The notes under the pieces are model-generated. The model saw only the letters and a list, made by a program, of their open reading frames with translations, was not told the DNA's origin and made no database searches. This document shows positions 1,636 through 42,677 of a DNA stretch of 64,000 bases, piece after piece (within the stretch, counting starts at the first letter, position 1; each line of letters begins with the position of its first letter). This stretch comes from Tomocerus qinae (taxonomy: Eukaryota > Arthropoda > Collembola > Entomobryomorpha > Tomoceridae): positions 2,232,001 through 2,296,000 of the forward strand of contig CM034546.1 of assembly GCA_020055645.1 (NCBI GenBank). The letters are read 5' to 3'. The position numbers and the translations under genes are program-made.

Positions 1636-2995
1636 TCGCTAAATAATTCCGATCATCAATCACCATCGTTTTCTCCAAACAATTTCGATAAAAGTGTCTA
1701 TTTCTGCATGCTAATGTAGTCAAATTGTATATTCCAACATGTTTTGGATGTCATTCGGACATCAGAAAAGCACATAATCTATTAAGCGTTTCAACAATAA
1801 TTTAAATCTATACACATATTAAGCATTTTCTTGCATTAAACATTATAACATTTTTGACCTTCTTCAAGAGAAGCATTTATTGTATGATTTAATTAAGAAA
1901 GCGACGACTCGTGAGAATTAAAGCGTTGACAAAACTTCTGCAATATGCATCCCTACCTTCCTGTGACTATCGTTACCACAAAACGTTCCATTTAAGACAG
2001 AAAAAATGATTTCTGAAGTTTGAAAAAAATATGCAAAAATAAAAAAGAAAAGAAAATGGCGTCAAGAAGGAGGTGCATAAATATTTGTATTTTTGTTTTT
2101 TGTAAGTTGTACCAAAAATTAAAATAATATATTTTTTCTACGTGTATCAAAACTTAGAATTTAATTCGATTTTAAAGTTGAATTTTCGATGCCTTAAAAA
2201 TGCTTATCGGGCTTTCCTGATTTTAAATATCTTGATAAATTCTGAAAATGAAAACCCTGTTGCTGTACGTTCAGCAGGTTTCATTATATGGGTCCAAGGT
2301 CAAACACACAACCCTATATATACTTCAGACTTCCTAACAAACCCTTTCAATTGAGTTTTAATTAATTATAATTTACTGTGCGTAACAATAATTCACACAA
2401 ATGTAAAACCATTGTGTGAATAGAATTTCCTAAGCAAATTATTACAAAATCCCATCGGTTCTGGAAATATTACTTTTTATAAACACAAAGTCAATGCTTC
2501 CCAATGCTTATATAAGTCCACCACAAACAGGAAATATGTTCAATTGTGGTTCTTAGTTTCAGGTTTATAGATAGATGTACAGTTCCATAGTTCCATGCAC
2601 ATCTATTTAAAATTTTTCAACTAAACAAAGAATCAATATCTGCACATTGTCGGTAGTCGGCACATCATGTGGGGTAAGCAGAAGTTTGTGGTTACTCATG
2701 TCTAATTTTTTAATTTTATAACTTTCTTATAAAAATCCCAAAGATAATTGGAAACGCCAAAAATCAAAGGAAATTTTTATCGTGCCAATATGATTTTTCC
2801 TAAAAATTGGGGAAAATGGTATATCTGTTGGTTCAATTAAATTTTACCCTTTTGTTTTTGATTTTCACTACCTTCAACCTGTGAAATATCTTGCCTTTAT
2901 AAGAAGGCAAATTTAAAAAAAATTGATTTTATTAAAGAATGTTAACGCGCATAGTAAATTGTGAAAAATGTCCTGTAGATTTCCATACCGTCCTT
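1636..2995. other. Gene-free AT-rich sequence
   Basis: I see no credible exon, RNA gene or tandem array here. The ORF at 2142-2354 has no recognisable motif. The stretch may contain the promoter of the downstream fusion gene, but no TATA box stands out. Confidence 0.4.
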
Positions 2996-3256: not shown

Positions 3257-5242
3257 ATGTGTACAGGTAACAGGAAAATTGCCTGGGTTACAGCAGCGGT
3301 GGACGAGGACACGGCTCTGCAGGCAATTGTGTTGGCGAAATCACTCTCTGGAGTTGTCTCGGAAGCGGATAAAATAGTTTTGGTATCTGAGGATGTTCCT
3401 GATGGTGTTGGGTGAGTTATTTCTAATTGCAATTAAAATGTCAATAATGTAGTTTAGAAACGGACAAATTGGTACAAACTATCCACAGCAGTACTAAACG
3501 TTGTATTCAAAACTAACGCGTCATGAAATGACATCTTTATATCCTTGGTTCAATTTTGTACATTTAAATGTTCAATGGTTATACATTTTTGTATCGTTTT
3601 TGTCAAATTGTAGAAACCTGGCAGTCTGATTAACTAGTAAGTTAGTTGTTGCCAATTGACTTAAGGATTGATAAAATCACTTCAATTGGTAAAATAGAAA
3701 ACAATTACTTCATTATACAAAAATACTTTTGTTTTACCAACTGGCCCAATGTGAAATAGCTTAACACTGTTAAGACGTACATAATAAATAATACATTGCA
3801 AACAAATTGTAGAAAGACTGAGCACAGTTCCTGTTGTACACACATAGATTTACAAGATACCCACAGTCTCAAAATATTCCCATACAAGCTGCCAATTAGC
3901 CCGACCGTGTGCACCGCTCCAATTATGGCATTGAATACCACATATGAATAGAATATTAATGAGAAATTTGCAAACGGCATGAAAAGATTATTTGATAAGT
4001 TGTGTACCAACTACAATATAGTCTAAGATTTGTATCTTAATGCGTTCAACATTTCCAACATCTCCACTAAAGCAAAATTGATTTACTATATAACTAATGT
4101 GTGTACATGAGATGAGTCCGTTAATAAGAAGTTCAACTATATGCTAATTTTCTTTCTATTTTAGTGGGCTTCTGTCCAAATTTTTCGACTCCGTCATTTT
4201 AATTGACCTGCGATTCAAAACGTCGAAACTGCTGAAAATGGAATTGCTTATTACACATGCCTGGAATATGACCGGATATGTCAAATGTGTCGTCCTCCAT
4301 CCGAATAAAACGGTATATAATTTTGATCTTGGTTTATTATGCAACAAAAAGTTTATAGACTGCCCTACTTTTGAAAATGGTGAACGGTAACTGTGAACAT
4401 AAAGTAATTTAATAATTTTCATTCATTCATTTAGGTCATCAAAAACTGCGATGAATTGTTTGATACAAAAGAAGTATTTTCAGTAGTGAAGAATGGTGAC
4501 TCTGAAAAGCAGATTGATGTGTCAATCATGGTCATCGAACCTGGATTTGGAGATTTCAAAAGTATCAATAATTTGGCCACGGATGGTCAATTTATTTCAC
4601 GTAAGTTTGTTCTGTGGTGTCCATTATTCGGGACATTTTTGTATACGGTCTGTTGCCCAAATTATTTTCAAATATTAAGTCTAATAGCAATAATGAGTAT
4701 ATTTGACTTTTAGTATCGGACCTCTTACATTTTCATTTTCTTCACGCAAAAAAGGGGGAACTGCAAAAAGTCTATAATTTTGATGCCGAAAGCCCGTTTT
4801 CGATGGAAACGTAAGTAAATGTCTTTAGTATTCGGTTCCATTTCGACTATCTACTGTTCTCTACAGTATCTCCCACATCCAAATGAATTTGACATTAGGT
4901 CTCAAACAATTTTCATTAGTTAAAAACGTGCAATAAACTCGATGGATTTCCAAGAAAATCATAGAAAACTGAATTAGGGGCAATGCGATTTGAAAAGTCA
5001 TCTTTCAAGCGCTCAAAAAGGACGACCTCTTAATTTAAGAAAATTGTTTTCAGAATTAGTTTTTGCCTTTTGCATATTTTCAATCTACATGTACCGGTAC
5101 GGTACACGACAAATCGTGTTTAGCTCTTTAAGTAGTAAAAATATGAATGAATGTCGTTTTTTTTAGATTTGGCGTCAAGATTGTTTCTGGTTTAGATAAA
5201 CCTTGGCCACAAAACCCGCGAGTGTCGCAAGAAATTTTTCAG
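3257..5242 (+). other. Glycogenin-like GT8 module, metal site lost
   Basis: The five short exons align end to end with glycogenin. The N-terminal strand is KIAWVTAAVDEDTALQAIVL; VKCVVLHPNKTV...NCDELFD lies where glycogenin has its DxD loop followed by (N/I)DDLFD; and FGVKIVSGLDKPWP lies where glycogenin has VVHFLGRVKPW. Glycogenin self-glucosylates using Mn2+ and UDP-glucose. Its DAD is HPN here and its later metal-binding His is not conserved, so catalysis is unlikely. The domain is also shorter than usual. It probably serves as a structural or binding appendage. No stop codon separates it from the PKS. Confidence 0.75.
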
Positions 5243-8200
5243 GTAAGAAAGTGCAGACCAACTACTATTGTCATTCACTTTAAAAACATTGGCTTTTTCT
5301 ATTGTGTTTGATTTATATCACACAATCCGTTTAAATATCTGTTTTTGAACCATAACCATTTATTGGCAAACAAAGAGTCCTGTAGTTAGCAATAAACTAC
5401 CGAAACCGAATAAGCGACCTCATGTGTATTGTTCTCTAAAAACTTTTGTTGCACTGTTTTCGGATAGTTAGTATCAAATGTACATGTTTGGATGAATTAA
5501 ACAACAATTTCTAAACGATAATGATCAGTAACAGTATGTTCATGGTCGTGTCGTATAATAAAACAAATACATAAATAAAACATTTGGCAAAATGCTTGAT
5601 TGGATGACGCAATAGGGAGGGTAGGACTGAGCAAATTGCTTATACAGAATAATAAAATCCAATATATAAAATGTAATAAGTAAAATATAATAAGAGATGT
5701 CTTTCGGGGTAAGAGTGAATCAAAAAAATGTGAGAAGATTAAAAGATGTTACAAACAACATAAAATGATAACATTTTTAACCACTGCGATGTTAGTTACT
5801 ACATACTATTCGATAATGAATAAAAATTTTCTATTCAGTGAGCTTCAGCTAGCTCATCATTATTATGTAGTTAAAGAATTTTAATAAAATAGTCTCCCGT
5901 CTTAAAAATATGCTAAACCAATATTAATATTTAGCAGGGAGCGTACACCAAGTTGTTAACATGGAGACAACAGACAGAAGAACAATTGAGTGCAATGGCA
6001 TCAAGCAAAAATATTTTTGATACAGAAAAAAGTACACATTATAAAGACTCCATTGCCATTGTCGGACACAGTTGCCGATTTCCTGGAGCCAACAACATTG
6101 ACGAGTTTTGGGAGCTGATAAAAAATGGTGGTGATGCAATCCGATCCGTACCCGTTGAAAGACTTTTCGAAAGCCAACTCAACGATTCCAGATTTACAGA
6201 ATCAAAAGCTGGATTTCTGAAATGTCCGATAGACGAGTTCGATGCCAAGTTTTTCGGAATCAGTCCTCGAGAGGCGGCTTTTATGGATCCACAGCAGAGG
6301 CTTGTGGCTGAAGTGGCTTGGGAAGCGTTGGAAAATGCGGCAATCGATCCACATTCTTTGAAAGGGAGTAACACGGGAGTATTTACTGGAGTGTGGACAC
6401 ACGACTACGAAAGAGTGATTGCCGAAAACTCAACTGCACAAGATTTCCACCATGTGATCCTTGGAAACGCCTTTTCTGCAACATCCGCGAGAGTTTCTTA
6501 CTTCTTGGGTCTCAATGGACCGAATGTGGCTACAGAGAGCGGCTGTTCCTCTTCGATGGTGGCTCTTCACCTGGCTTGCGACAGTCTCAGGAAAAGGGAA
6601 ACCAATTTGGGTTTGGTGTTGGGGGCTAACATAATTATTCTGCAATTGCCACTCGGGGATATTCCAATTCTGGCCAAAGATGGTCACTGTAAAACTTTCG
6701 ATGAATCGGCGGATGGGTTTGGCCGAGCAGAAGGAGTGGCCGCAATTGTTTTGAAAAGATTGCCAGATGCAATTAAAAATGGTGACAGGATTATGGGCAT
6801 TATTAGAGGGACAGCAGTGAGTAACGAAGGAACATCTTCCAATTTCGGAACTCCGAGTAAACTCTGTCAGCAAATTGCTATAAATCATGCTTTGAATAAT
6901 GCACGAGTCAAGCCAGGAGATGTTGATTATGTAGAGGCACATGGAACTGGAACCCCCATTGGGGATCCCATTGAATTCGCCGCCATTTCCGCTGGCTACA
7001 CTGGAGAAAGGGAAAAACCACTTTTAATTGGGTCGGTTAAAACAAATATAGGTCATACTGAGTCAGCTGCAGGGTTAGCTGGACTAATGAAAGTTATTCT
7101 GGCGATGGAGCATGAAGAGATCCCTCCCCATAGAAATTTCACGAAATTAAATCCAAGTATTGACTTGGATGTTGTTCCCGCTGTAATTCCACTTGAAGCT
7201 ACACCCTGGTTGAAAAACCCTGAAAGAACTCGAATTGCAGGTGTGAGTTCATTTGGGATTAGTGGGACCAATGTCCATGTAATTGTAGAAGAGCCTCCGT
7301 GTGATATAAAAACACGGCCTCTAGAACTAAATGTTCTAGAGTCTGAAAAATCTCATCATGTTCTTACGCTATCAGCAAAATCAGAAAATGCTCTCAAAGA
7401 TTTGTGTAATATATATTGTAAATATTTGAACAAAAACCCATCCGTTAATATCACAGACCTCACTCACACCTGTAATACTGGACGGGCACACCACAAATAC
7501 CGTCTTGCAGTTACTGGGAAATCGGTTGCTGATTTTCAGAGAGCCTTAGAAAGTGATATACATATTCCACCGACACTTAACGATAAACCCAAAGTGGCCT
7601 TTCTGTTCACTGGACAAGGTTCGCAATATGCGGGAATGGCAAAGTCTCTCTTTCAGTCCAATTATATTTTTAATTTAGCGTTTAGTGAGTGCGAAAATAT
7701 TATTAAAAATAGTATCGGGATTTCGTTAAAAGATTCTTTGTGGCATGACTCAGTTGGTAATTTGTTAGATCAAACAGTTTGCAGCCAACTTTCCATTTTT
7801 TCTGTAGAGTACGGTCTTTTGAAACTGTGGGAAAGTGTAGGGATTGTTCCCAATGTCGTTCTAGGGCACAGTGTCGGTGAATTTGCTGCTGCGGTGGCTG
7901 CTGGGATAATTAATCTAGAAGACGCTTTAAATTTACTTGCTGAACGAAGTAGGTTAATTCAGAGTCTTCCGCCAGGTGGAATGATTGCTGTTCGTTCACC
8001 CAAGGAAAAAGTGTCCAAATTAATTGCGGAATTTTCCAATGTTCATTCGAATATGTGGTTGGATATTGCTGTTATCAATTCCGAGGACGAAGTGGTAGTA
8101 GCTGGCAACAAAAATTCAATTGAAACTTTTAAAATATTTTGTGAAAATAATAGTGTGAAGATTCAGGTTCTCGCAGCTTCTCATGCCTTCCACAGCCGAG

Positions 8201-11200
8201 ATATGGAGAAAATTAGTGAAAAATTCGAAAAAATTTCAAGTAAATTGTCTTACAAATCTCCAAAATGTCATTATGTATCAGGAACAACAGGTGCACATCT
8301 TTCTAATAACGAGATGGAGGATGGAAGTTATTGGGTTAGACATGCAAAGGAATCAGTCAATTTCCAAAAGGGAATATACACACTGGGTGATTTAGGCTAT
8401 AATGTTTTTGTTGAAATTGGAGCACATCCGGTATTGTTGGCATTAGGAATGAATAACTTAAATACTTCTGGAAACGAATTGTGGATTCCTTCTATAAGAC
8501 GAAACAAAGATGACTGGGAAACAATTTTAAGTAGTATGGGGACATTATACACCAACGGTATAAATATTAATTGGAAATCTTTAGATAAATCATGGCAAAG
8601 GAAAAAGTTGCAGTTGCCAAATTATCCATTTCAAAGGCAAAAATATTGGGCAGAATTGTCTGGAGATGTTAGTGACAAAATAATTCATCCTCTTCTTGGA
8701 AAGAAGGTTTCAGTAGCTGATGTACCCCATTATGTTTACGAACACGTTTGGAATTTACGAGATCTGCAATATATTAAAGACCACCAAGTTGCACATGTCA
8801 CCGTTTTACCGGGTGCAGGATTTTTAGAAATTATTTTAGCTGCAGGAAAGGACATCCTCCTAAAAAATAATGAACATGATTTTGGTTTGTTAACTGTCAA
8901 AGATTTTGTGGTGGAATCACCATTGGAGATGGAAGAAGGAAGAAAATACAAAATTCAAGTAGTTGCATCTCCTGTAGAAAATGAGGACGCCACTTTCCAT
9001 GTCAAGGTGTATATGTTTAGAAAATTGAATGGATACAATGACGAGAAAGGTTGGAAACGATATTCAAGTGCAAACGTCACTCTTAGCGAATCTGTAATTT
9101 TACCATTCAAGGATAAATCGGTAGAAACAAATATTTCTGAAAAAGATAAAGAAATCAAATCTGAGACTAGATATTTGACTGAAGAAATTGATCTTGTTAA
9201 AAGTCGTTGTCCTAATACAATGGACTCCAAAGAATTCTATAAATTGGCTCCGGAAATTGGAATATTTTTTGGCGAGACTTTTCAAAGCATAGAATCAGTT
9301 TGGGTGGGAGAAAAAGAAGCTTTGGCTTTAATTCCAGCACCAAAAAAAGCGGGCAATATAGCTGATTATGTTTATCATCCAATAGTTTTAGACGCCATGA
9401 TTCAACTATTTGGGTTGAGCATTGGAACTGATAACTTGGACCTTTATTTACCAGTTGGCGTTGATCGAGTTTTTCTTGTAGACGATTCTGTTTCATCGGA
9501 GATATTTGCTCATGCAAAATGGTGCGAAGATAAATCTCAGGGAACTGTTGCTCTATATAATGAAAAAAACGTCTTACTTGCAGTTATGGTGGGTATCCGG
9601 TTGATGAAGACATCCGTCAGTTCATTTCTGAATGTGATTAATGCTCACAAGAATATGTTGCCCGGCATGTATCAGGAAGTGTGGAGACAGCGAGTGGGGC
9701 CAGTGCAAGCACGAATTGATGTTAAGAAAATAGTTGACACCGAAGATATCATTGAACCACTTGCAGCCAATATGGAACAGCATATGCATTTGTTTGTACT
9801 GGAATGCCAAAGAAAGTCTGATGAGGGTGTAAGGTGGGGCATAATGAAAATGTTTAGACAAAACGGATTTTCGCCTAAGGTAGGAACTGTTTATTGCATC
9901 GAAGAATTTCTTCAAAACTACTTAATACATCCCGACCATCGTCTGTTTATAAAGCGGTTGTTTGAATTTTTATGCGAAGATGGTTACGGTCACGAAATTG
10001 ACAACGAATCTGGATTTATGGATAAGTGGAAATGCACTAAAGAATTTCCAACTCTTGAGGAAATTGAAAAAAGAATTTCAGAGATTGACGTTTTTGTTTA
10101 CATCGAGGGTGCAACAGTAGGGCGAACTAGAGTTCCTGAAATTCTTAAAAAATGTTTGTCCCACACCTGGGATGTTTTGCTAGGGAAGAGAACGGCTGTG
10201 TCTGCTTTATTCGGAACAGAGGATCTAAATCCATTAGATGTTTACACAATAAGTAATGAATGTGTTATAGCAAATAAGCGGGCGGGACGATTTCTTGGAT
10301 TGGCACTAAGAGAGTTTAAATCAGTGCCAAAAAAAGAAGATTATATTGTTAGGATAATTGAAATAGGAGCTGGCAGTGGAGCTACGACGAAGGAAATTTT
10401 AAATATTCTACAAAAAGATGAAATCCCATTTCGTTACACTTTCACTGATATTTCTCCTCATTTCTTTGAGAGAGCCAAAGAGCAATTTTCAGCATTCAAT
10501 GGAGTTGACTATAAGGTATTGGATATAGAAAAAGATCCATCGGGACAGGGATTTTGTCCAAATCATTATGATATTGTCGTGGCTGCTAATGTTATTCACG
10601 CAACTGCAGATTTAAAAAGATCTATGACCAATATTCGTAAATTGATTTGCACTGACGGTATTTTGGTATTGGAGGAGATTACTGATCCAAGTAGAGCAAT
10701 TGATTTCATTTTTGGTATTCTAGAAGGATATTGGAAATTTACGGATTACGATGTTCGGTCTCGTCATTCAATGGTGTCTCCACAAGTTTGGAGTAAAGTA
10801 TTGGTTGAAACTGGATTTACAGAGGCTATTAATGTTTCATCCAAAGATGAATTTATCACTGTTCTGTCGTCTCGAGCTGTAGATGTAACATGTGAAACTA
10901 AGAATTCTGTAGATACTTTGAATACAAAAAGTCACAAGAAATCGGTTTGGCTTATTTTTGGAGAGGATTATGATTTGTCAATCCATATTAGAGAAAGGGT
11001 TTTAGCTATTTGCGATGATGTAATACTAATTCAAAATGAAGCAAAGGAATTCAAAGACTATGGTCAGCACATATTGTCTTGTAAACTAACCGACATTGAT
11101 TCCCTTAAAGTAATTACATCAGCATTATTAGATAAATATCAAGTTAATGGTATAATGTATTTAGCTACCAATACTGATAATGACAATAGCCATTTGGTAT

Positions 11201-14200
11201 TTAAATCTATATTAAATGTTTTTAAATTCACATCCGAAGCTGCACATCACAATTTACGTTTTGTAATTGTTACTAGAGGCGTATATTACTTACAAAATCA
11301 GAAGACAATGTTTCCGCTCAATGCCGTCCTTTGGGGAATGGCAAAAAGCCTTGTGAACGAAGTTTCAAAATTGCAGTGGAAAATGATTGATTTAGATCCA
11401 GATGAGTCTGACAATGCAGTTGATAGTCAACAAATATTTTTTGAAGTCTTTGAGCAGAAAGAACTTTTAGTTTCGTTTAGAAATAAAAAAAAGTTTGTGT
11501 CGAGAATAACTACTCTGCCGAAGTCATTGGCTCCTTTGACACTTCCTAAAGGACGTTTTACAATCGACATTCCTAAAACGAAGAAAATTAACGACGTCAG
11601 TTTTTCTTCTATGGAGAAGGAGCCTCTTGATTCAAAAAATATTGAAGTAATGGTAAAGGCTGTAGCATTGAATTTTAGAGATATTTTTGTCATTCTTAAG
11701 CCACCTATGTACACTACACTAAAGGAGACAATTGGCTCTGACTTTGCAGGAATCGTTACTAATATTGGTTCAGAAGTCACTAAATTTAATGTTGGAGACG
11801 AGGTTTACGGAGTTACCTTAAGCAGCAGTGTAGCCAGTCATGCCGTTACTCACGAAGACATAGTTATGTTAAAACCAAAAGATGTTACATTTAAAGATGC
11901 TTCAACTCTCCCTTCTGTACTAATGACCGCATTTTATTGCATGGTAACTGTTGCAGATTTAAAAAAAGATGAAACTATTCTGATTCACGTTGCTTCAGGC
12001 GGTGTTGGATTAATTGCTATCCAAATAGCCAAAAATATCGGGGCTAAAATAATTGCGACTGCTGGATCCCACCGGAAAAGAAACTATCTGCGCACTTTGG
12101 GGATTGAGCATGTTTTTCATTCCCGAGATTTGACGTTTGGAGATGAAATAGATAGAGTGACGAATGGACGAGGTGTAGACATGGTTCTCAATTCTCTGAC
12201 TGGTCACGGATTCAAAGAAACAACTCTCAAGGCTTGTGCACTAAATGCACGTTTTGTGGAAATAGGAAAAGTAAACATTTGGAAAGCGGAAGACGTTTTG
12301 GGATTGAGACCTGATGTTGACTACACCATTGTTGATTTAGAGAAGTTGACAAGTACACAAATGGGAGAGTTAATAGATCAAATGAAAATTGACAGGAAAG
12401 AGGATTACAAGGCCTTGCCTTATTCCTGTTATGATGTAGTGAATATCAGAGATGCATTAAATTATTTTTTGAAAGCAAATCACATTGGAAAAATTGTAAT
12501 AACATTGCCTGATATAATCGAAATAGGAAATCAAGTGGCCAAAAAAAATGTGTTATTTAGTTCAAATGCTACATATTTAGTTACTGGAGGTTTAGGCGGA
12601 ATAGGACTTGAAGTTGCTAAATGGATGACAGACTGTGGCTGTAAGTGTCTAGTTTTGGTTGGAAGATCTGCACCGACAGAAGCTGTTTCTCAAGTACTGA
12701 ATAATTTGAGGGCAAAGGGTTGCAAAATATTTTCATTCCAAGTAGACATTGGAAATTGGAGTCAATGTAGTTCCCTATTTGAGACGATCTCATCTTCCGA
12801 TCTTCGTCTTCCTCCTCTTAGAGGAGTGGTTCATTCTGCTGGTGTTATATCCGATGCCATTTACATGAACCAAACTTGGGAGAAATATCAAACCGTTTTC
12901 AATGCTAAAATCGAAGGATGTATCAATTTGCACAAATTAACGCAAGATTTACATTTGGAACATTTTGTTCTATTTTCATCCATGGCTGGATTGGTCGGTC
13001 CAATGGGACAAAGCAATCACGCAGGGGCAAACGCTTTCCTAGATTCATTTGCCAACTATCGTCACTCTATTGGTCTTCCAGCTCAGACAATAAATTGGGG
13101 TGGATGGGCAGAGATTGGTGCGGCTTCAAACACAGCCTATGGCAAAGAAGGTTTATTTGGTGTCAAGCCATTTACACCCAATCAAGGCATTGCGTCTTTA
13201 AATTTTATCATGAGTCGGCCAGACTTGCTACAAGTTGGTGTCGTTCAGATAGATGTAGATGAATTTAAACAGCATTTTAGCATGGGGAGTGTATTATCAG
13301 AATTGGAGGTATACGACAATAAAGACTCTACGGATTCGGCTGCTGCCATTCAATCAGAAAAGTTTTGGGCTGAAATTGGACCACTTAGTGCTGAGGATAA
13401 ACATTCTTATATTAAAACCAAAATCAGTGCAATCATCAGAAAAACGTTAAAACTGCCGGAATCAGAGGCCATTGACGAATTTCAAACATTCCAAGAAATG
13501 GGATTAGATTCTTTGATGGCTGTTGAAATGAAAAATAAACTTCAAAATATTGTAGGGAAAAGAATAACTTTGAATGTCTCAGCAATGATGGATCATCCAA
13601 CTATAAACTCACTTAGTAAATATTTAGTGGAACAAGCAATAGCTTCAGAAGTTCAAGGTGACACTGAGAATCAGGGAAAAGTAGTACAAAATGTGGATTA
13701 TGGAATAGAGGATATGTTAAAATTGGTAAGACAGGATTCTAAGCTATCAGAGGAAATTCAGGTATCATTTGTGTATGATGGAAAATCTAAAATAAAAAAC
13801 ATATTACTAACAGGTTCAACCAGTCACCTAGGAGCATATTTGTTACAAAATTTAGCTCAAATTGTGGGATTGAAAATTTATTGCCTGGTTAGAGGAAAAT
13901 CAATAGAACAAGCACGGAAAAAATTAATCGCCAACTTGAAAAAACTTGAATTGCTGCAGAATATGGATGTAAATGTGATTTCTATCATCACCGGAGATAT
14001 TACAAGCGATAATTTTGGACTTGCCATGGATGAATACGTTAGACTTTCCACGGCAATTGACATGGTTATTCATCTTGCAGCCAAAGCAAATCACGTAGAA
14101 AAATATGAACTCAATAAGAGCAATAAAAATGATATTCGGTCAGTAAATGTTCTAGGTACGGTAAACATTCTTAAATTTGCCTCGAATATCAGAACAAAGA

Positions 14201-14961
14201 GAGTTGTATTTCCATCTTCGTTTTCATCTATTAATCGTCTTACAGATGAGGGATTCATTTACGAAGATTTTCCTGATGATGAAAATAACGCTGACTGCAT
14301 TACAATGGGCTACTCATTGTCCAAATTTGTTTGTGAAAAGTTATTAAGACAAGCAAGCGAGCGAGGAATTCCTTGTACGGTAATTAGATATTCAAGTATT
14401 TTAGGGCACAGCGAGACGGGGCTTTATATGACAAACAAAAATTCGGTGGTAAATCAACTTCTCTTTTGCCTTCGACTTGGAGCAATTCCGAATGTTGAAG
14501 GTTGTTGGTTCGGAATTCCAGTTGACGTGGCCAGTAAGCTAACATTAGAGCTGATTTTCAACGATAAAGTCCAATCTGCTGTTTATAATATTGTTCAACC
14601 AGTGCCCATGTATACCAAGGATTATATTATGGTAGCTGAAAGACTTGGTTTTCACTTGAAACTGGTAAGTGTGGAAGAATATACAGGAATGCTTCAAAAA
14701 GAAATTGAGGGTAGCAGCTTTCTAACAATTTTTAACGATGGTTATGGTAGAGATCTGTCCCATACAGAACTTTCGCGGAATCATCCCAAATTCCGTGAGT
14801 TTTTAGAGAAGGGAGTCAATACAAACAAAATTAGTGACAAGTGTAGGGAACTAATACCGGATATAAACGAAAGGATTCCGCATCCTCACGATATTTTGTA
14901 CGCTTGTTTGCAATTTGCGCATCGAACTGGTGTTTTTGAAAAGTTTGGAATTGTGCGCTAA
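3257..14961 (+). CDS. GT8 (glycogenin-like)-highly reducing polyketide synthase-thioester reductase fusion
   Basis: Six exons fit in phase: 3257-3411, 4165-4312, 4435-4600, 4714-4810, 5167-5242 and 5935 (or 5938)-14961; about 3,220 residues. Exons 1-5 (214 aa) are a GT8 domain. Exon 6, numbered from the codon at 5953, holds: KS with C198, H330 and H368; AT with GHSVGE (S640) and HAFH (744-747), the malonyl-CoA pattern; DH with H944 and D1147; C-methyltransferase with EIGAGSGATT at about 1470; ER with an NADPH loop at about 2012; KR with GGLGGIG at about 2211; ACP with GLDSL (S2520); and a Lys2-type thioester reductase, TGSTSHLG at about 2619 and Y2787/K2791. The expected product is a reduced, C-methylated polyketide released as aldehyde or alcohol. 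In KR the usual Tyr of YxxxN is His (2356). A poly(A) signal AATAAA lies at 15159. An alternative start, ATG 5995, would give a plain PKS. Confidence 0.85.
5935..5940 (+). promoter_or_regulatory. NAGNAG tandem splice acceptor at the fusion joint
   Basis: The intron that joins the GT8 exons to the PKS exon ends TTTAGCAG. Splicing after the first or the second AG keeps the frame and differs by one Gln codon. The donor at 5243 is GTAAGA. Confidence 0.6.
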
Positions 14962-17257: not shown

Positions 17258-19486
17258 TTATAATGGATCCACATCATCATATTTCAAAAACATTTTGCGC
17301 TTACGTCGTCGCATAGTGGACGCTTTAGAATATTTTTTGACCCCGAATTTAAAGTTAATCCTTGAGCATACAGCCAAAATCAGGGCCTTAATTCTAATTC
17401 GGCAGAAAATTTTAGTTTTATGGTAAAAAGAAATTATGAGTTGAATTAAAATTGAAATAGCCCGTTTTAGGTACCATAGCAAAAGACTCCTACATTCAAT
17501 AGCTATAGCTGCAATAAATGCCATCACAGCAGCCAGGGACAAATAAAATACGGTCGTGATGTTAGAATTTTTAAAGGATAATGGACGAGGTTCTTGTTTT
17601 CCAAAACAATGTTTGCATTTAATAAAATTTTTGTTTTTCTCGTATTCCAGCCATTTGTGGTACATGCCTGATTGATCCATCCACAATAGTCCATTTCTAA
17701 AGTGACGATATAATTGTTGAACACCATTTGTAGAAGGATTGATATATATACCCAGAGGCCTTGGGACGAACGCATTTTTTGGGGTTCCTTGATATAGTGG
17801 ATGTTGGGGTGTTACACCTTCCCAGTGAGAAGCATTAAGAAAAGTCTGGATTAAATGTTCCTCTTCGATATAAACTGAATCCTTGCATTCTGAAATCTAA
17901 TTTTGAGGTGTAACGTAGGGATATCCAGGAGGAAAATGATGTTTGTCCATAATTGCTTTAGATTTAGTAGTTAGCTTCCCTTCAGTAGCATAAACATAAT
18001 TCATAAATTTGAAAAAGGAATTGCTAGAATTACATTTAGATACCATTTTTTTGCACATTTGAAACGCCTTTTGAATCTCTTGTTTTGATTTATTGAAAGT
18101 TGAAGTGTAAGACTCAGGAGCGTAGCCATCAACAATACAGAACTCTGCCCCCATTTTTATGTGGAGACTTAAATCTGGGGTATTGTTAAGGTAACAATCG
18201 TACCTGTAACTGATTAATTTGAGAAATGTGCTATCTTCATTAAAATGTAGGCCAGCAAGACCAGTAGGACTGTATGAAAGGATGTTGGTGTGGTTGGCTA
18301 ATTCGTCTATAGATTCCAATCTTTTGACAGGGCGTGGTTCGGTCAAATCTGACACAATAATTCCCTTGTAGCAATTTGTTAGTACAATAAACATCAGGAG
18401 CAGAGGACCGATTACCAATTTCAGCCACAGCTGCTTTTGTTGTTGACTGCTGAGGGAGTAACTGATCTCCAAGATGTAGGCGTAGCAAATCAACAGAAAC
18501 GGAATTGTCTCCATCTCTTTCCATCGACTCACCAAGTACACAAATACAATTACCGAAAAGAGGGAGCAAATAATGGCAATCCACGCATGAACTTCGTAAG
18601 GTCTTACGTATCCGTAGAAGGACAAACGCTCATCTTCTAAAATGATGCAGGAAACGAAGGTATACCCGCTAGTTGTAGTCGGTATATATAGAGTACTACT
18701 TGAGTGTATTTGTTTAGTTTCAAAATCAACATTCACACTCTTACAAAGTTGGCATACATTTGGGCAAGTATTCCAACTATCATTGATAGTGAAATTTGGG
18801 AAGTTGCGAAGTATTAACTTCACTGCAGCGTTATGAAATCCTAAATGTTTTTGGTTGAAATATCTTCCAAAATAATCGAATTGTTTTGGTAGTACTCCAC
18901 AATATTTTTGGGTATATTTTCCTCGAGGAAAGTTAATTACCAGTGGACTTTCTATCGGCGTTTTAATAAATATTTCCAAGGACTTATCAATCAATTCTTC
19001 TCGGTTTTGATCGTCATTCAACTGCAGTGGGACCAGATCGTGGGTCGAATATTGATTTACCCCTACCCAATATGTCAGACATCCGGAGCAAATAAAATAG
19101 ACGAGACTGCTGTATGCAGAATGGAAATAAGTCATTTTATTTGTTTTGGAATACCATTTCAGAAGACGGCGTAAATATTTCTGATCAGTAATAATGGATT
19201 CCCTTAGAGCACTACGTGATGTCTTGTGAATTCTGTATTTCGCATTTCTTCAAGTACAATTTGTAGATCGGATTGAATATAAGCCGCGAAAATGTTATTT
19301 TCAAGATACAAGTCTACATTTTTGCTTGTGTTCAGATTTAATGAAATGTAGGCCAAACAATTGTATCTGGCCACTTCACGATGGTGGGGAAGCCTCAATC
19401 TCCGCGTGTATCTCTTCAAGAAACAGGTGAAATCAATGTAGTGGACATCGTTGTAGTTCACATTCTAAAAGTCAATTAAAGATCAA
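17258..19486 (-). pseudogene. Ionotropic-receptor-like chemoreceptor with stop and frameshift
   Basis: It encodes a divergent IR (ligand-gated channel of chemosensory neurons) related to the intact gene at 29077-31488. The first part (19486-19204) begins after an acceptor-like TTTTAG and runs out of frame near 19205. The main frame continues through SFYGYVRPY, TM1, the pore region, TM2 with GPLLLMFIVLTN and the TEPRPVKRLES motif. It stops at an in-frame TAG (17896-17898) exactly where paralogs have the Trp of PQKWIAEC. Beyond the stop the frame stays open through the S2 lobe, Cys motif and TM3 to 17258. There are two lesions, and no exon 1 was found. Most likely a pseudogene; stop-codon readthrough is known for an IR in Drosophila but would not repair the frameshift. 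Confidence 0.8.
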
Positions 19487-29076: not shown

Positions 29077-31488
29077 TCAGTATGCAATCTTGTTTCTCAA
29101 AACTTTGCTTGCTTCCACCAAAACTGTAATAAATGTAATTGTCTTTTGTTTAAAAAGTGTTTTGTTTTCCCAAAAAAATGCCACAGCATAGAGAAATGTA
29201 AGGGAAGCACAAATGTAAAATATTGTTGAAATATTGGAATTATACATTGTAATAGCCCTTACAGGACTTCTTTTCCAGCATGTTTTGCATTCGGTAAAGT
29301 TCCATCTGCTGTAATGATCTTGCCATATTTGTAATATTCCTGAATGAATTAACATATGTAATCGTTTTCTTAGAAAATAAGTTAGCATAGGAAATTGCCA
29401 ACTGTAGAATCCCGAATAAATAGGAAATGAGAGAAATGACTTTTCTTCAGCTCCTCGATATAATTGGTGAATTGGTTGGACTCCGCCACTCTGAGGATTC
29501 CAATGTGAATCATTAAGAAGCCGATGGAGATTGGAACTTGAGAGAATGAGGACGGAATTATTGCATTCTGCTATCCACTTTTGAGGAGTGACCGTGTAAG
29601 GAAATCCTGGAGGAAATTGAACCTTTTCACTAAGCTTTAACATAGTTTCTTTATTATTTGTAATTTGAAAATCTTGGGAAGACTCTAAAAGTCGGTAGAT
29701 TATAAACCGAAATTTAAAGTTCATAATTAACTGACTATTATCATATTCCTGAATGTGTGTCTGAATTATCTTTATATCTGAGCTATCAATTTTGAAATCT
29801 GGGCTTTCCAATTTTTGTCTACAATAAGATAAGTTATGCGAATCTGTGCCATTAGTTTTAATACATTCTTGGTAGTAGATTTTTAGTAAATCTTTTTCCC
29901 ATTGTAACTGGAAAGGATCCAAGTCGTTTGCATATTTAATTTCCCCAAGAGCAGTTACATCTGAGAGATTTGCTATCTGTTCTATAGATTCAATTTGTTT
30001 GACTGGACGTGGCTCCACTAAATCCGTAATTACAATTCCTTTGTATCCGTTGGTCAATACGATGAACATTAGCAACAAGGGACCAATGACCAATCTGATC
30101 CAGAGGGTTTGTTCTGCTTTTGTTGGAAGAGAGTAACTGACTTCTATTATATATGCATAGCAAATCATCATAAATGGAACACTTTCCTCTCCTTTGTAAT
30201 ATGTTACTCCATGAACAAAGAGAATTACAGGGATAATTGTGGTAATGATACCCAGCCAAGCGAAAGGTTGAAAAGGTCGGACGTACCCATAAAAAGAGAG
30301 ATTTTCATCTTCTAAAACGACACAGGAGATAAAATTGAAGGATTCTTCCATTATGGGAATTATAGTCAAGTAAGGGTCATACCGATAATCAATTATACTC
30401 TGTTGGTCTTCGTCATAAAAATTCATTTGTCCATAAAATAAGATAGAATATTCATGCTCAACAATATCAGAGGTATACGCTTCTTTTGTTGACATTGTAA
30501 TATTTGAAGAACCTTCTAAAATGATTGAAAGGATCGGAAGGGAAATTTTATTGTTTCCGTTAAAATTGTACGTTGTAAAATGCACATTGAGTAGCGGTGG
30601 TCCATTATATGGCTTATACACATGCTGTTGAAATCGATCATTCTCTACTATTGATGTATGGTCGGCAACAATAAATTTCCGAACGAAACTGCTTTCTTTC
30701 ATGACATAATTTGTCACTAATTCACGCAGTGGTCTATTATTTAGACAATGTTCATGTGGACATATCGGCCACATGGCAAACGATATGTGAGTATTAGGCT
30801 CAATCTGTGGCCAAATCAAATACACATTTTGTGCATCGTCATCTGATAAAGACAATACAAACCAAGATTTTTTCCAAAAATAAACATACTCGTGGTCAAT
30901 TTTAGCAAAATTGGAATATGACTTTGCACGCTCAAAACTTTCTTTGTTAACGAACATGTACACAGAAGAATATTCCACCAAGTTGTACATTAACTCGATA
31001 TTAAAATGGTCATATTTGTCCACAGTTTTATATCCTTCTTCTTTTGCCGCTCGCTTAGTGATGTAATCAATTACTAAAGTATCAGCAATAATAGTTGGAT
31101 CTAAATTAAATGCAATATTCACCACACAAACTAAACGGCTAAGCAGACGTGGGGTCGATAATTTGAAGGAATCTTTTGTAGTTAAATTTCGTTTACATTT
31201 AGAGTAATGACTTCTTGAAATTGAATGGCGGTAAAATGGTTCTAATAACGATAAATGTTTTAAATTGCAATATTTTTCTTCCTCGTCAAATTTTAATTTT
31301 GTAAATGCGAATGGTAAGTCAATTTCCTGCAATTCGTTACTTGACAGCTCTTCTGATAATGTTTTATAAGACTTGGGTTGAAAAATCAAATTAATGTAGC
31401 ATTCTTTTTCACGATGAACTACATCTTTCAATTTCCACCCAAAACACAATTGAACTACTACAAGTAAATGACACAAAATATTTGACAT
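29077..31488 (-). CDS. Ionotropic-receptor-like chemoreceptor, intact
   Basis: Single-exon gene of about 803 aa. The open frame runs to 31506, but MSNILCHLLVVVQLCFG at 31488 is the better start because it opens a signal peptide. Numbered from 31506: extracellular N-terminal and S1 region, SFYGYVRPFQPFAW before TM1 (about 414-437), pore segment about 445-460, TM2 (468-487), LVEPRPVKQIES after it, the S2 lobe with PQKWIAECNNSVLI, a CKTCW motif near 740 and TM3 (about 758-779). This is the topology of IRs, iGluR-derived cation channels used for smell and taste. The family is divergent, and no classic glutamate-binding triad was recognised. It has three damaged paralogs in the window. It lies tail-to-tail with the CRAL-TRIO gene. 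Confidence 0.85.
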   Translation of the reverse strand: MSNILCHLLVVVQLCFGWKLKDVVHREKECYINLIFQPKSYKTLSEELSSNELQEIDLPFAFTKLKFDEEEKYCNLKHLSLLEPFYRHSISRSHYSKCKRNLTTKDSFKLSTPRLLSRLVCVVNIAFNLDPTIIADTLVIDYITKRAAKEEGYKTVDKYDHFNIELMYNLVEYSSVYMFVNKESFERAKSYSNFAKIDHEYVYFWKKSWFVLSLSDDDAQNVYLIWPQIEPNTHISFAMWPICPHEHCLNNRPLRELVTNYVMKESSFVRKFIVADHTSIVENDRFQQHVYKPYNGPPLLNVHFTTYNFNGNNKISLPILSIILEGSSNITMSTKEAYTSDIVEHEYSILFYGQMNFYDEDQQSIIDYRYDPYLTIIPIMEESFNFISCVVLEDENLSFYGYVRPFQPFAWLGIITTIIPVILFVHGVTYYKGEESVPFMMICYAYIIEVSYSLPTKAEQTLWIRLVIGPLLLMFIVLTNGYKGIVITDLVEPRPVKQIESIEQIANLSDVTALGEIKYANDLDPFQLQWEKDLLKIYYQECIKTNGTDSHNLSYCRQKLESPDFKIDSSDIKIIQTHIQEYDNSQLIMNFKFRFIIYRLLESSQDFQITNNKETMLKLSEKVQFPPGFPYTVTPQKWIAECNNSVLILSSSNLHRLLNDSHWNPQSGGVQPIHQLYRGAEEKSFLSFPIYSGFYSWQFPMLTYFLRKRLHMLIHSGILQIWQDHYSRWNFTECKTCWKRSPVRAITMYNSNISTIFYICASLTFLYAVAFFWENKTLFKQKTITFITVLVEASKVLRNKIAY

Positions 31489-31509
31489 TTTTAAGTCGTG
31501 CTGCAATTA

Positions 31510-39689: not shown

Positions 39690-42677
39690 GTGTATTCTCG
39701 TCAATATTGTCAAACTTTAAATAATTACTCCATGGATACTACAACATTAACTAACACTCTTTCTCAATGTGTTACTGGAAGTACTTGTTTAAAATGTGGT
39801 AAATCATGCAAGGGAACTAAAGGTCTGAAAATTCATGAATCAAAAGCTCATAAAGATGTCCACCTTGATAATATTCAGTCTAAATATGATGATGAGGAAA
39901 ATTTGACTACAAATACGAGTATTTGTTCACAGAATTGGTTTAATGAAAACGATGAACAAGCAAGTGATGTAAATTTATTTCAAGATGTTAATGACAAACT
40001 TCAAGAACTAAGTAATGAAGCGGAATACTTTAAGGAAAACTTTGATCCAGCCTTATGCGATGAATTAGTTAATCAGACTATTAATATTCTTAAAACAGCG
40101 AATTCATTGTTACCTGGCCCTAAACATCCGGCAACTAAATTTTATGAAGCTAGAAAACGGAGCTCCCAATTTCGTCAAAGAGAAGCAGGGTATGATAAGT
40201 CTTCTAATCCTATCCGTTCTTCAGCTCGGGCAAGAAAACGACGTCAAGAAACTTATAATCATCAATTGATGCAACATTTATATTATAATCAAAGGAAGAA
40301 GTGTGTGAGAAAACTGTTAAATGATAATACTAACAGTTGTAAAATACCTATGGATCTACTTTATCAATCCTTTGTTGAAAGATGGAGTACAAAAAATGAC
40401 AATGTCAGGGATTACTACCATACTGTTCCTACAGAATTACAGATAGAAATTTATGATGATTTTAGCTGCATCATAACAAAAGAGGAATTGGAAAAAGGGA
40501 TCTCTGGAATGAAAACTGACTCCTCTCCGGGTCCTGATGGTATTTACCCTAGATGTTTAAAGCTGACCAAATGTGCTGATATCCTATCTAAGATTGCTAC
40601 ATTTATGTTGATACATAACTATGTTCCTGCTGCATTAAAAGAAGCAAAAACTGTGTTAACATACAAACTCAAAGGGGATAAAAACTTACCGGAAAATTGG
40701 CGACGGATTTCAATATGTTCTGTAATACGACGTGTGATAGAAAAGGTGTTGGATGCTAAAATTCGTAAATGGATTAAATTTAATCCGAGACAAAAAGGCT
40801 TCATTCATGAACCTGGATGTCACATAAATACTTCAATACTAGAAGGATGTCTTCGCAAAGGAATGAAAATGAAATCATCTTTAGTAGTACTGTTTCTTGA
40901 TATTAAACAAGCTTATGACAATATTGGACATTTGCATGCTAAATTCTGTCTTGATGAAATACTTATGCCATCTGCTCTACGGAATCTTGCTTTGTCATTA
41001 CAGACTAACAATTTCACAAGATTAAATGTTAATAATTCTGCATCTGCACCCATTTTCTTTAAACGTGGATTTTTCCAGGGGTCTCCGTTATCGCCAGTAT
41101 TATTTAATGCGGCAATTGATTACGTGATAAATGAGTTATCTGAACCTGAGATTTCGTTGCAATATGGATTTTCATTGGATCGATCTTTGCCTAACTTGTC
41201 TGTTCTTAGCTTTGTTGATGATACTGCCCCAATTGCAGGATCAAGATCAGCAGCTCGTGAATTATTTACTATTGCACAAAATGCATTTTCTAGAACTGGA
41301 ATGACTATAAGTGAAAGTAAATCATCTGCAATTCATATAGAAAATGGAGAACTTTCGGATGTTGATCTTATTGTCTCTGATAATATTACAATTCATGCGA
41401 TTAATTCCAATGAAGTTGTGAAATATCTTGGTGTAAATTATCAACAAAGACAAATTTTCAATGAGTCTTTGGTACTTGGAAAAATTAAGTTGTCATTGGA
41501 TAAGCTTTTATCATCCCAAATGCTCTTCCCAGACCAAAAGTTGAATATTATCAATCAGTATCTTTGGCCGGTGATGGTTTATCCTTTGCAAACGTGCCCA
41601 CTGTTAAAATTGAAGAAATCTTTTCTTTGTGACTTAAATACTATGATTCGTAGTACTATTAAGTCTATCTTGGCTCTGCCTGACGACCTACCATCATCTA
41701 TGTTGTACTCCCCAAAGAAGTGGAAAGGTTTACAAATACCGAATGCTGAATGGGAAGCATATATCCAACATTATAATATTTGTGAAACATTATTGTCTCA
41801 AAAGGATCCTTATGTTTTAGTCAGTAGACAGCTTGACATTGAACAGAAAAAATGTCTTGAAAAACTTGACATCAAGAATGAAGATATTCTACTTACTAAA
41901 ATGAATATGAAGAAATCTTCTAATACTAAAACTTCTAAAATACTGCGTACAATTCTACGTGAAAGAGAGTTTGTTAAATGGTCTGAATTAAAATCTAAAG
42001 GAAGAGGAGTATCATTATTTAAACAGACTCCGTATGCTAACGAGTGGATTATATCTCGTAAAGGATTGACTTCATCGGAGTGGACATCTGCTTTAAAATT
42101 GACTGGAGGTGTAGCCGCTGTTAATTCTGTTCCAGGACGAAATTTTAACACTAACCGTTGCCGTTTTCCAACGTGTAATGAGATTGAAACTATTGGACAT
42201 GTGTTAGGATTTTGCCCGAAGACTGAATTGATGCGTAATAACCGACATCATACAGTAAGAGCTTTGATAGCTGAAGCTTTAAGGAAAAAAGAATTCCAAG
42301 TTTATGAAGAAGTCCATTGTCAATCTGATGCTGATTCAAATAGGAGAGTAGATATTTTTGCCAAAATGGGTAGCAAAGGATATATTATTGATCCAACTAT
42401 TAGAATAGAATCCCATGAAAACCAACCTGAAGAGGTTCATATTGAGAAGAAGAGTATTTATGAACCGTGTATTAATTACTTCAAATTACAATATGGTGTC
42501 AAAAATGTAGAAGTAATAGGATTGATGATTGGATCACGAAGTACAATACCCTCGTTCTTTGAAAATTTGGGAAGTGAAAAAGAATTTTCACTTCCCAAAG
42601 AGTTGACTGTTAACATTGTATTATCCGTGATTCGAAATTCTACTCAAATACTGCATTATCATTTGTTTTCACCTTGA
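39690..42677 (+). CDS. R2-type non-LTR retrotransposon polyprotein (RLE clade), intact
   Basis: One uninterrupted frame of 995 codons; the first ATG is at 39732. The N-terminal C2H2 finger (C33, C36, H49, H54) is DNA-binding. The reverse transcriptase spans about 270-620, with SSPGPDGIYPRCLK, LFLDIKQAYDN, GFFQGSPLSPVLFN and the catalytic FVDD at about 508. The C-terminal part has a CCHC-like knuckle (CRFPTCN...GHVLGFC, about 824) and a restriction-like endonuclease (RRVDIF...GYIIDPT, about 885-902). This is the order found in R2, NeSL and related site-prone elements, which nick the target and prime reverse transcription from it. No stops or frameshifts suggest recent activity. A perfect 15-bp stem hairpin lies at 42566-42599. 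The 3' UTR probably ends near 42840 at a TATATATA tract. Confidence 0.88.
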   Translation: MYSRQYCQTLNNYSMDTTTLTNTLSQCVTGSTCLKCGKSCKGTKGLKIHESKAHKDVHLDNIQSKYDDEENLTTNTSICSQNWFNENDEQASDVNLFQDVNDKLQELSNEAEYFKENFDPALCDELVNQTINILKTANSLLPGPKHPATKFYEARKRSSQFRQREAGYDKSSNPIRSSARARKRRQETYNHQLMQHLYYNQRKKCVRKLLNDNTNSCKIPMDLLYQSFVERWSTKNDNVRDYYHTVPTELQIEIYDDFSCIITKEELEKGISGMKTDSSPGPDGIYPRCLKLTKCADILSKIATFMLIHNYVPAALKEAKTVLTYKLKGDKNLPENWRRISICSVIRRVIEKVLDAKIRKWIKFNPRQKGFIHEPGCHINTSILEGCLRKGMKMKSSLVVLFLDIKQAYDNIGHLHAKFCLDEILMPSALRNLALSLQTNNFTRLNVNNSASAPIFFKRGFFQGSPLSPVLFNAAIDYVINELSEPEISLQYGFSLDRSLPNLSVLSFVDDTAPIAGSRSAARELFTIAQNAFSRTGMTISESKSSAIHIENGELSDVDLIVSDNITIHAINSNEVVKYLGVNYQQRQIFNESLVLGKIKLSLDKLLSSQMLFPDQKLNIINQYLWPVMVYPLQTCPLLKLKKSFLCDLNTMIRSTIKSILALPDDLPSSMLYSPKKWKGLQIPNAEWEAYIQHYNICETLLSQKDPYVLVSRQLDIEQKKCLEKLDIKNEDILLTKMNMKKSSNTKTSKILRTILREREFVKWSELKSKGRGVSLFKQTPYANEWIISRKGLTSSEWTSALKLTGGVAAVNSVPGRNFNTNRCRFPTCNEIETIGHVLGFCPKTELMRNNRHHTVRALIAEALRKKEFQVYEEVHCQSDADSNRRVDIFAKMGSKGYIIDPTIRIESHENQPEEVHIEKKSIYEPCINYFKLQYGVKNVEVIGLMIGSRSTIPSFFENLGSEKEFSLPKELTVNIVLSVIRNSTQILHYHLFSP
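42566..42599 (+). repeat. Perfect 15-bp stem-loop in the retrotransposon ORF
   Basis: TTTGGGAAGTGAAAA, loop AGAA, then the exact complement. It lies 78 bases before the end of the ORF. RNA structures near the 3' end are used by R2-like reverse transcriptases for template recognition, so a role in RNA recognition is possible. Confidence 0.6.

Follow-up and report, generated by a model that had tools for sequence, protein, structure and literature searches.

Glycogenin and polyketide synthases (PKSs) are both dimers, and the highly reducing PKSs of fungi, LovB among them, have the domain order KS-AT-DH-MT-ER-KR-ACP. We know of no N-terminal GT8 domain in LovB-type fungal PKSs, and of no GT8 part in the bacterial mycocerosic acid synthase or CurL. 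The animal type I PKSs known as AFPKs include a few arthropod enzymes with an R domain for termination (PMC10764717), and 30 type I PKS clusters, most of them called horizontally acquired, have been reported from Folsomia candida (PMC5490193). No fusion of a GT8 or glycogenin domain to a PKS was found in the open-licence literature searched. In the portions of these papers that were available, "glycosyltransferase" has 0 occurrences in the AFPK paper (PMC10764717) and does not occur in a paper on animal NRPSs (PMC10531068), and the word "glycogenin" is absent from the main text on F. candida PKSs (PMC5490193), appears solely in the title of a reference in the text seen of PMC3188802, and stands for pullulan primers in that of PMC11905612. 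The open-licence literature searched on inactive glycosyltransferases and springtail lipids held no direct parallel to a GT8-PKS fusion; springtail cuticular cyclopropane hydrocarbons are mentioned in the accessible part of a 2026 paper (PMC13389473).

The window analysed here is a stretch of 64,000 nucleotides from the springtail Tomocerus qinae. With a probability of roughly two in three, we read its features in Table 1 as a seven-exon gene of about 3220 residues, in which a pseudo-glycogenin would form a non-catalytic N-terminal module in front of a one-module type I PKS. The PKS part was compared with PDB sequences, and the best matches were the bacterial mycocerosic acid synthase (1.7e-237) and CurL, over KS-AT. 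Similarity to LovB was lower (1.8e-163), and the window PKS is further from FAS (6.4e-135) and the AFPK EcPKS1 (2.3e-114) than from the bacterial enzyme. As in F. candida, an arthropod whose genome holds many type I PKS clusters (PMC5490193), the PKS repertoire of T. qinae is very large for an animal genome, with no fewer than 123 KS genes. Many of these are single-exon frames of about 3000 amino acids at C1:0.4-12.5 Mb, in tandem clusters.

Table 1. Features of the GT8-PKS gene, in window positions
Feature	Position	Strand	Basis
TATA box (TATATAAG) of conserved core promoter	2509..2516	+	island common to L034 and L042
First-exon coding part ATG TGG G with donor GTAAGC; probable start codon	2667..2673	+	12-mer ATGTGGGGTAAG
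Exon 2, GT8-like (NRKIAWVTAAVDE...)	3267..3411	+	145 nt in 14/14 loci modelled; acceptor conserved
Exon 3, GT8-like, degenerate DxD site (HPNKT)	4165..4312	+	148 nt in 15/17 loci modelled; glycogenin alignment
Exon 4, GT8-like (VIKNCDELFD...)	4435..4600	+	166 nt in 14/18 loci modelled
Exon 5, GT8-like	4714..4810	+	modelled in 19/21 loci; 97 nt in 12/19
Exon 6, GT8-like end (KIVSGLDKPW...), donor CAG/GTAAGA	5167..5242	+	modelled in 19/21 loci; length variable, 82 nt in 10/19
Exon 7, linker and complete PKS, stop codon included	5938..14961	+	open frame; acceptor
Ketosynthase (KS)	6046..7140	+	PF00109/PF02801
Acyltransferase (AT)	7600..8565	+	PF00698
Dehydratase (DH)	8686..9606	+	PF21089/PF14765
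C-methyltransferase core (MT)	10357..10665	+	PF08242
Enoyl reductase (ER)	11638..12501	+	PF08240/PF00107/PF13602
Ketoreductase (KR), His at the active-site Tyr position (GQSNHAGAN)	12568..13113	+	PF08659; alignment; pattern search
Acyl carrier protein (ACP)	13420..13626	+	PF00550
Terminal thioester reductase (R)	13807..14538	+	PF07993, E=1.2e-43

The initial annotation had called the five-exon domain glycogenin-like, and this identity is borne out by homology searches. A phmmer search of PDB sequences with the window's GT8 part alone gave glycogenin-2 and glycogenin-1 as best matches (E 2.5e-10), with 19 glycogenin sequences ranking first of the 24 matches, and exons 2-4 by themselves still match glycogenin at 3.6e-10. 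Every one of the 19 sequences with a match at E<=1e-6 is a glycogenin (glycogenin-1/-2 of family GT8; PDB 3t7m, 4ueg and 1ll2). A profile built from 12 spliced genome copies matched glycogenin-2 at E=9e-17 over profile positions 4-177 of 253, and its best non-glycogenin match was Skp1 galactosyltransferase, at 0.0083. The region CW..T.Y.KC...N.DELFD is common to the window domain and the glycogenins, and for the last quarter of the GT8 part the phmmer and profile searches returned no homology to glycogenin. Unlike glycogenin, the window domain has a broken DxD motif, is fused to a PKS, and has no match to Pfam PF01501, neither in the window at E<=10 nor in any of the 12 members, in a search whose HMMER filters discard most matches above 0.1.

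The DxD region reads KCVFMDADTLV in glycogenin and KCVVLHPNKTV in the window, so that DADTL is replaced by HPNKT. Of the 27 genome copies read at this site, the first Asp of the motif is present in 0 and the second in 4, in a set in which L021 and L022 are alike and L016 is the same place as L055. In the 17 close copies the first Asp never occurs and the second occurs once (L045); in the ten divergent copies (L020, L021, L022, L023, L028, L029, L054-L057) the figures are 0 and 3 (L054, L055, L056). The N-S-G stretch of glycogenin is altered in the window domain by reading of the alignments. Glycogenin has an autoglucosylated Tyr and a Mn-binding His in its C-terminal region; by eye neither was seen near the C-terminus of the window domain, and the profile alignment ends before that region.

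Since the DxD motif is broken in all 27 copies, sugar transfer and self-glucosylation are not supported, and glycogenin-type catalysis was rejected. Judged by these residues, the fused domain is a pseudo-glycogenin, a catalytically degenerate GT8 with a metal and UDP-sugar site that reads as lost. Binding of a nucleotide sugar, or a metal-free sugar transfer that decorates or primes the polyketide, would agree with the overall glycogenin family signature that has been kept and with the second Asp of L045, L054, L055 and L056, but the first Asp is missing in 27/27 copies, the second in 23/27, and the N-S-G stretch is changed, which makes such a function improbable.

The five GT8-like exons were all found as first described, phase-compatible and without a stop, and their joined reading is stop-free in the window. 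The donor after 5242 (CAG/GTAAGA) also joins as proposed, in phase 0, to the acceptor at 5934/5937, so that exon 7 starts at 5938, with 5935 also workable, in the PKS frame; counted from 5935, this frame is open for 3008 amino acids and reaches its stop at 14961. When 3257 was kept as the start and the donors and acceptors near each boundary were left free to vary, six boundary combinations ran stop-free into the PKS; the set used is the one that gives the glycogenin-like reading (Table 1, with 5935 as the other start of exon 7). A Trp is almost invariant at the GAYTKLLTWRQQTEEQ region across 12 sequences, and it is plausible that the GT8 fold ends here, within the PKS exon.

The related loci bear on whether the two parts form one polypeptide. 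All five GT8 exons were modelled in 12/21 loci by a script that accepted only stop-free models with GT/AG ends and the phases seen in the window, and the agreement among loci is therefore partly imposed. In 10/21 loci no ATG occurs in frame between the preceding stop and the KS, and those synthases must therefore start translation further upstream, in another exon. In the window itself one Met precedes the KS within the PKS exon, as in 10/20 paralogs, so the missing-ATG argument proves nothing for the window alone. This Met, near 5995, would be the start of the PKS if the locus were two separate genes, a short GT8-like gene followed by a PKS with its own ATG. The 10 loci that have no such ATG stand against this arrangement, as do the phase-0 donor that can be placed directly after the last GT8 exon in 19/21 loci (with the phase imposed by the script), the stop met in the window when the last GT8 exon is read through into its intron, and the absence of opposite-strand arrangements (0/123), and two genes seem very improbable. 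The single GT8 and PKS polypeptide of the initial annotation is strongly supported by sequence conservation across the loci.

The start of the gene differs from the one first given, the ATG at 3257. The 5' end of exon 2 could be aligned in 14/20 fetched paralog regions, and in all 14 an AG acceptor lies immediately 5' of the conserved part of the exon and none has an in-frame Met at the codon of the window's ATG. The start at 3257 was rejected on these grounds, and exon 2 begins at 3267 instead, with a likely start codon at 2667 in a small extra first exon behind a conserved TATA box. The window shares a promoter island with L034 and L042 at 71-72% identity over 125-128 bases (E 1.5e-7) with the TATA box aligned, and, more weakly, with L039. 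The 12-mer ATGTGGGGTAAG, which spans ATGTGGG and the donor GTAAG, is exact in the window and in 5/14 paralogs (L035, L042, L039, L044, L041), has one mismatch in L034 and L053 and two in L050, L040 and L049, and at up to two mismatches was not found in L037, L051, L052 and L048, for the last of which only about 266 bases upstream were covered. L034 has one additional match at two mismatches, taken as chance. Over the 51.6 kb scanned, this threshold gives 12 matches, and 20 single-base shuffles averaged 0.95. The phase fits as well, ATG TGG G joining GT AAC to read M-W-G-N-R-K, and the protein with this first exon is 3220 amino acids long (213 + 3007). A general shared-peptide scan for the first exon gave nothing useful.

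The PKS had been described as a complete reducing enzyme with reductive release. The Pfam matches agree with the domain order KS-AT-DH-MT-ER-KR-ACP-R, and the KS translation contains GCSSS, HGTGT and NIGHTE, the KS active-site motifs with the Cys-His-His residues. The catalytic Tyr of the KR of mycocerosic acid synthase, however, aligns with a His in the window (GQSNHAGAN, 13006-13032), so the words "complete reducing" are not proven. To our knowledge, His variants at this position occur in other PKSs. In the genome the GQSNH-type motif was found in 48 places, against 8 for the GQSNY type, which is confined to multi-KS clusters and contig C100. The gene has a single module, which is consistent with iterative use. 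The PKS would build, methylate and reduce a chain that the R domain would release: the MT and ER domains suggest a methyl-branched, reduced chain, and the R domain suggests release as an aldehyde or alcohol.

The multi-KS arrays are a separate observation. KS domains spaced about 7.6 kb apart at C1:34004020-34019998, C1:35263003-35286506 and on C100, some of them within long open frames (up to 3769 amino acids), resemble multi-module PKS genes carried on an animal chromosome. All three arrays are without GT8 matches and have the KR Tyr in the copies read, and the two on C1, near 34.0 and 35.3 Mb, fall outside the KS clade with GT8. Elsewhere in the window, three long frames on the minus strand (17897-19249, 29077-31506 and 48700-50418) share the motif LSFYGY[VI]RP and look similar to divergent ionotropic receptors, with a PF00060 match (8.4e-5) below the cut-off in one of them, and a 995-amino-acid frame on the plus strand (39690-42677) with a reverse transcriptase domain (RVT_1, 8.4e-26) is probably a non-LTR-like element.

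The GT8-PKS gene of the window belongs to a large family. A search with PF00109 found 127 KS places in the 334-Mb genome, or 123 KS genes after merging of fragments, and a GT8 match was counted for a KS gene when the two shared a strand and the match lay no more than 16 kb upstream, without another KS between them. The window's GT8 query alone (150 matches listed, all at E<=4.8e-5, with 6 in PKS exons removed) gave such a match in 67/123 KS genes. Adding a divergent query gave upstream GT8-like exons in 77/123 with its 34 matches at E<=0.01, and in 87/123 with all 79 matches to E 10. These KS and GT8 counts are lower bounds, because the search scores the best candidates only. An opposite-strand GT8-like match upstream was found for 0/123 KS genes, in the count at E<=0.01 and in that to E 10 alike. 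The 36 to 46 KS genes of 123 without a GT8 match suggest that some PKSs can do without the domain or have one that has diverged beyond recognition. In the wide count to E 10, 18 GT8 matches were not assigned to a KS gene: four lie 17-23 kb upstream of the L038 PKS, one (C10:114207) lies 10 kb before a KR motif, one is a candidate free glycogenin, three are weak and chance-like (E 1.8 to 8), and nine are others. In the same genome (TTAGG)6 has 400 occurrences, against 0 for a control.

A closer look was taken at the PKS exons of 20 paralogs, which all lie on C1 and were picked among frames of about 3000 amino acids, with about 8.4 kb upstream of each. GT8 exon matches at E<=0.01 lie on the coding strand in 18/20 of these upstream regions, as in the window, and on the opposite strand in 0/20; they are collinear in 17/17 paralogs with two or more matches. 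When 210 loci were shuffled in two-base blocks, 0 matches reached E<=0.01; the GT8 similarity is not due to chance. L038 and L046 have no GT8 exon match within about 8.4 kb upstream, and have matches further out, at 17-23 kb and 9-13 kb respectively. Directly upstream of the window, its tandem neighbour L034 (C1:2214683-2223000) is likewise a GT8-PKS gene; its exon 2 (from 5149) has no consensus donor and may be decaying or spliced otherwise.

A KS tree was built from 40 sequences, 31 from the genome including the window and 9 bacterial ones, with no animal FAS. L023, L025 and L031 (stops in the match), L010 and L011 (copies of L008 and L009), L067 (partial), L068 and L069 (not extracted) and 15/20 close paralogs (near-identical or partial) were left out. 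All 17 GT8-positive sequences fall inside one clade of 24 with support 100/100, on a tree that has long bacterial branches and a root drawn at the midpoint, and the same clade includes a GT8-negative subclade of 7 sequences at 53-57 Mb. The GT8 label changes 2 times on the tree, against a shuffled mean of 13.1. This fits one GT8 gain and one loss, and GT8 parts that have diverged beyond sight in the 7-sequence subclade would fit too. In flanks of 1.5 kb, GT8 pieces were found at 10/30 KS loci and at 0/16 loci without a match in the wide count; L014, L024, L032 and L033 have no piece in these flanks though they are positive in the wide 16-kb count. A scan for bacterial KS relatives with six peptide patterns, which may miss closer relatives that do not have those peptides, returned 12 distantly related loci of 26-39% identity, 10/12 of them 33-43% identical over the KS, and identified no bacterial donor of the PKS.

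On the host side, a possible free-standing glycogenin divided among exons lies at C1:83795880-83799661 (+), and no KS was found closer to it than 40 kb; it is made up, by coordinates only, of three weak pieces (E 3.3e-5, 0.14 and 0.23). The three best Pfam GT8 matches elsewhere in the genome gave at best a weak glycogenin alignment (best E 0.017). Altogether the tree fits one old fusion, amplification and one loss, in which a copy of a host-type, intron-bearing glycogenin, from which we infer the GT8 domain to descend, would have been joined once to an ancestral PKS and then amplified.

The GT8-like domain is under purifying selection. Among the 12 complete copies, 65 of the 66 pairs have a usable dS, and dN/dS of the GT8 part has a median of 0.26 and a maximum of 0.41; the KS start of these genes gives 0.03-0.14 in the 14 closest pairs listed. 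The rate of evolution of the GT8 part is several times that of the KS start, so that the domain is constrained, but less than the KS. A fused remnant without a role, copied along with the PKS duplications, could well have a GT8 part that evolves faster than the KS and a neighbour such as L034 whose exon 2 has no consensus donor, but dN/dS stays at or below 0.41 in all 65 usable pairs and the domain has been kept across divergent clades, so a mere passenger is hard to credit.

The same difference in rate could mean that the pseudo-GT8 is a variable part for specificity or localisation, with partners, starter units or membranes that differ by paralog, and not a common dimer cap. The KS starts of 20 paralogs are 89-97% identical to the window, against 50-71% for the GT8 parts with linker in 11 paralogs. 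In 65/66 pairs, however, dN/dS does not exceed 0.41, so that no pair-wide positive selection is seen, and surface changes alone could account for the rate of the GT8 part. This explanation is unlikely, though it deserves some weight.

The most likely reading is that a conserved pseudo-glycogenin forms the N-terminal part of the synthases in a large animal PKS family, as a non-catalytic structural or docking module. That dozens of related genes are built alike points to structural use of the dead domain. The domain would have kept its fold and, sitting N-terminal to the KS, would most likely act as a dimer cap or a platform for docking that helps the synthase to assemble as a dimer or to dock. 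For the GT8 part, the scaffolding or binding function first suggested is possible and is the preferred reading. By analogy with glycogenin, which holds the first sugars, the pseudo-glycogenin might instead be a protein primer for polyketides that holds or gates the starter unit or the growing acyl chain. This is a long shot; if true, such a primer module would have become fixed a single time, and copying would then have given rise to a very large family of fused pseudoglycosyltransferases.

Few multidomain enzymes have been studied as thoroughly as type I PKSs, and no fusion of one with GT8 or glycogenin was found described in the open-licence literature searched. With a dead metabolic enzyme retained in dozens of its members, the family provides a clean test of the structural recruitment of pseudoenzymes, and the fast-evolving domain offers a handle on why an animal needs at least 100 KS genes and on the products that they make.
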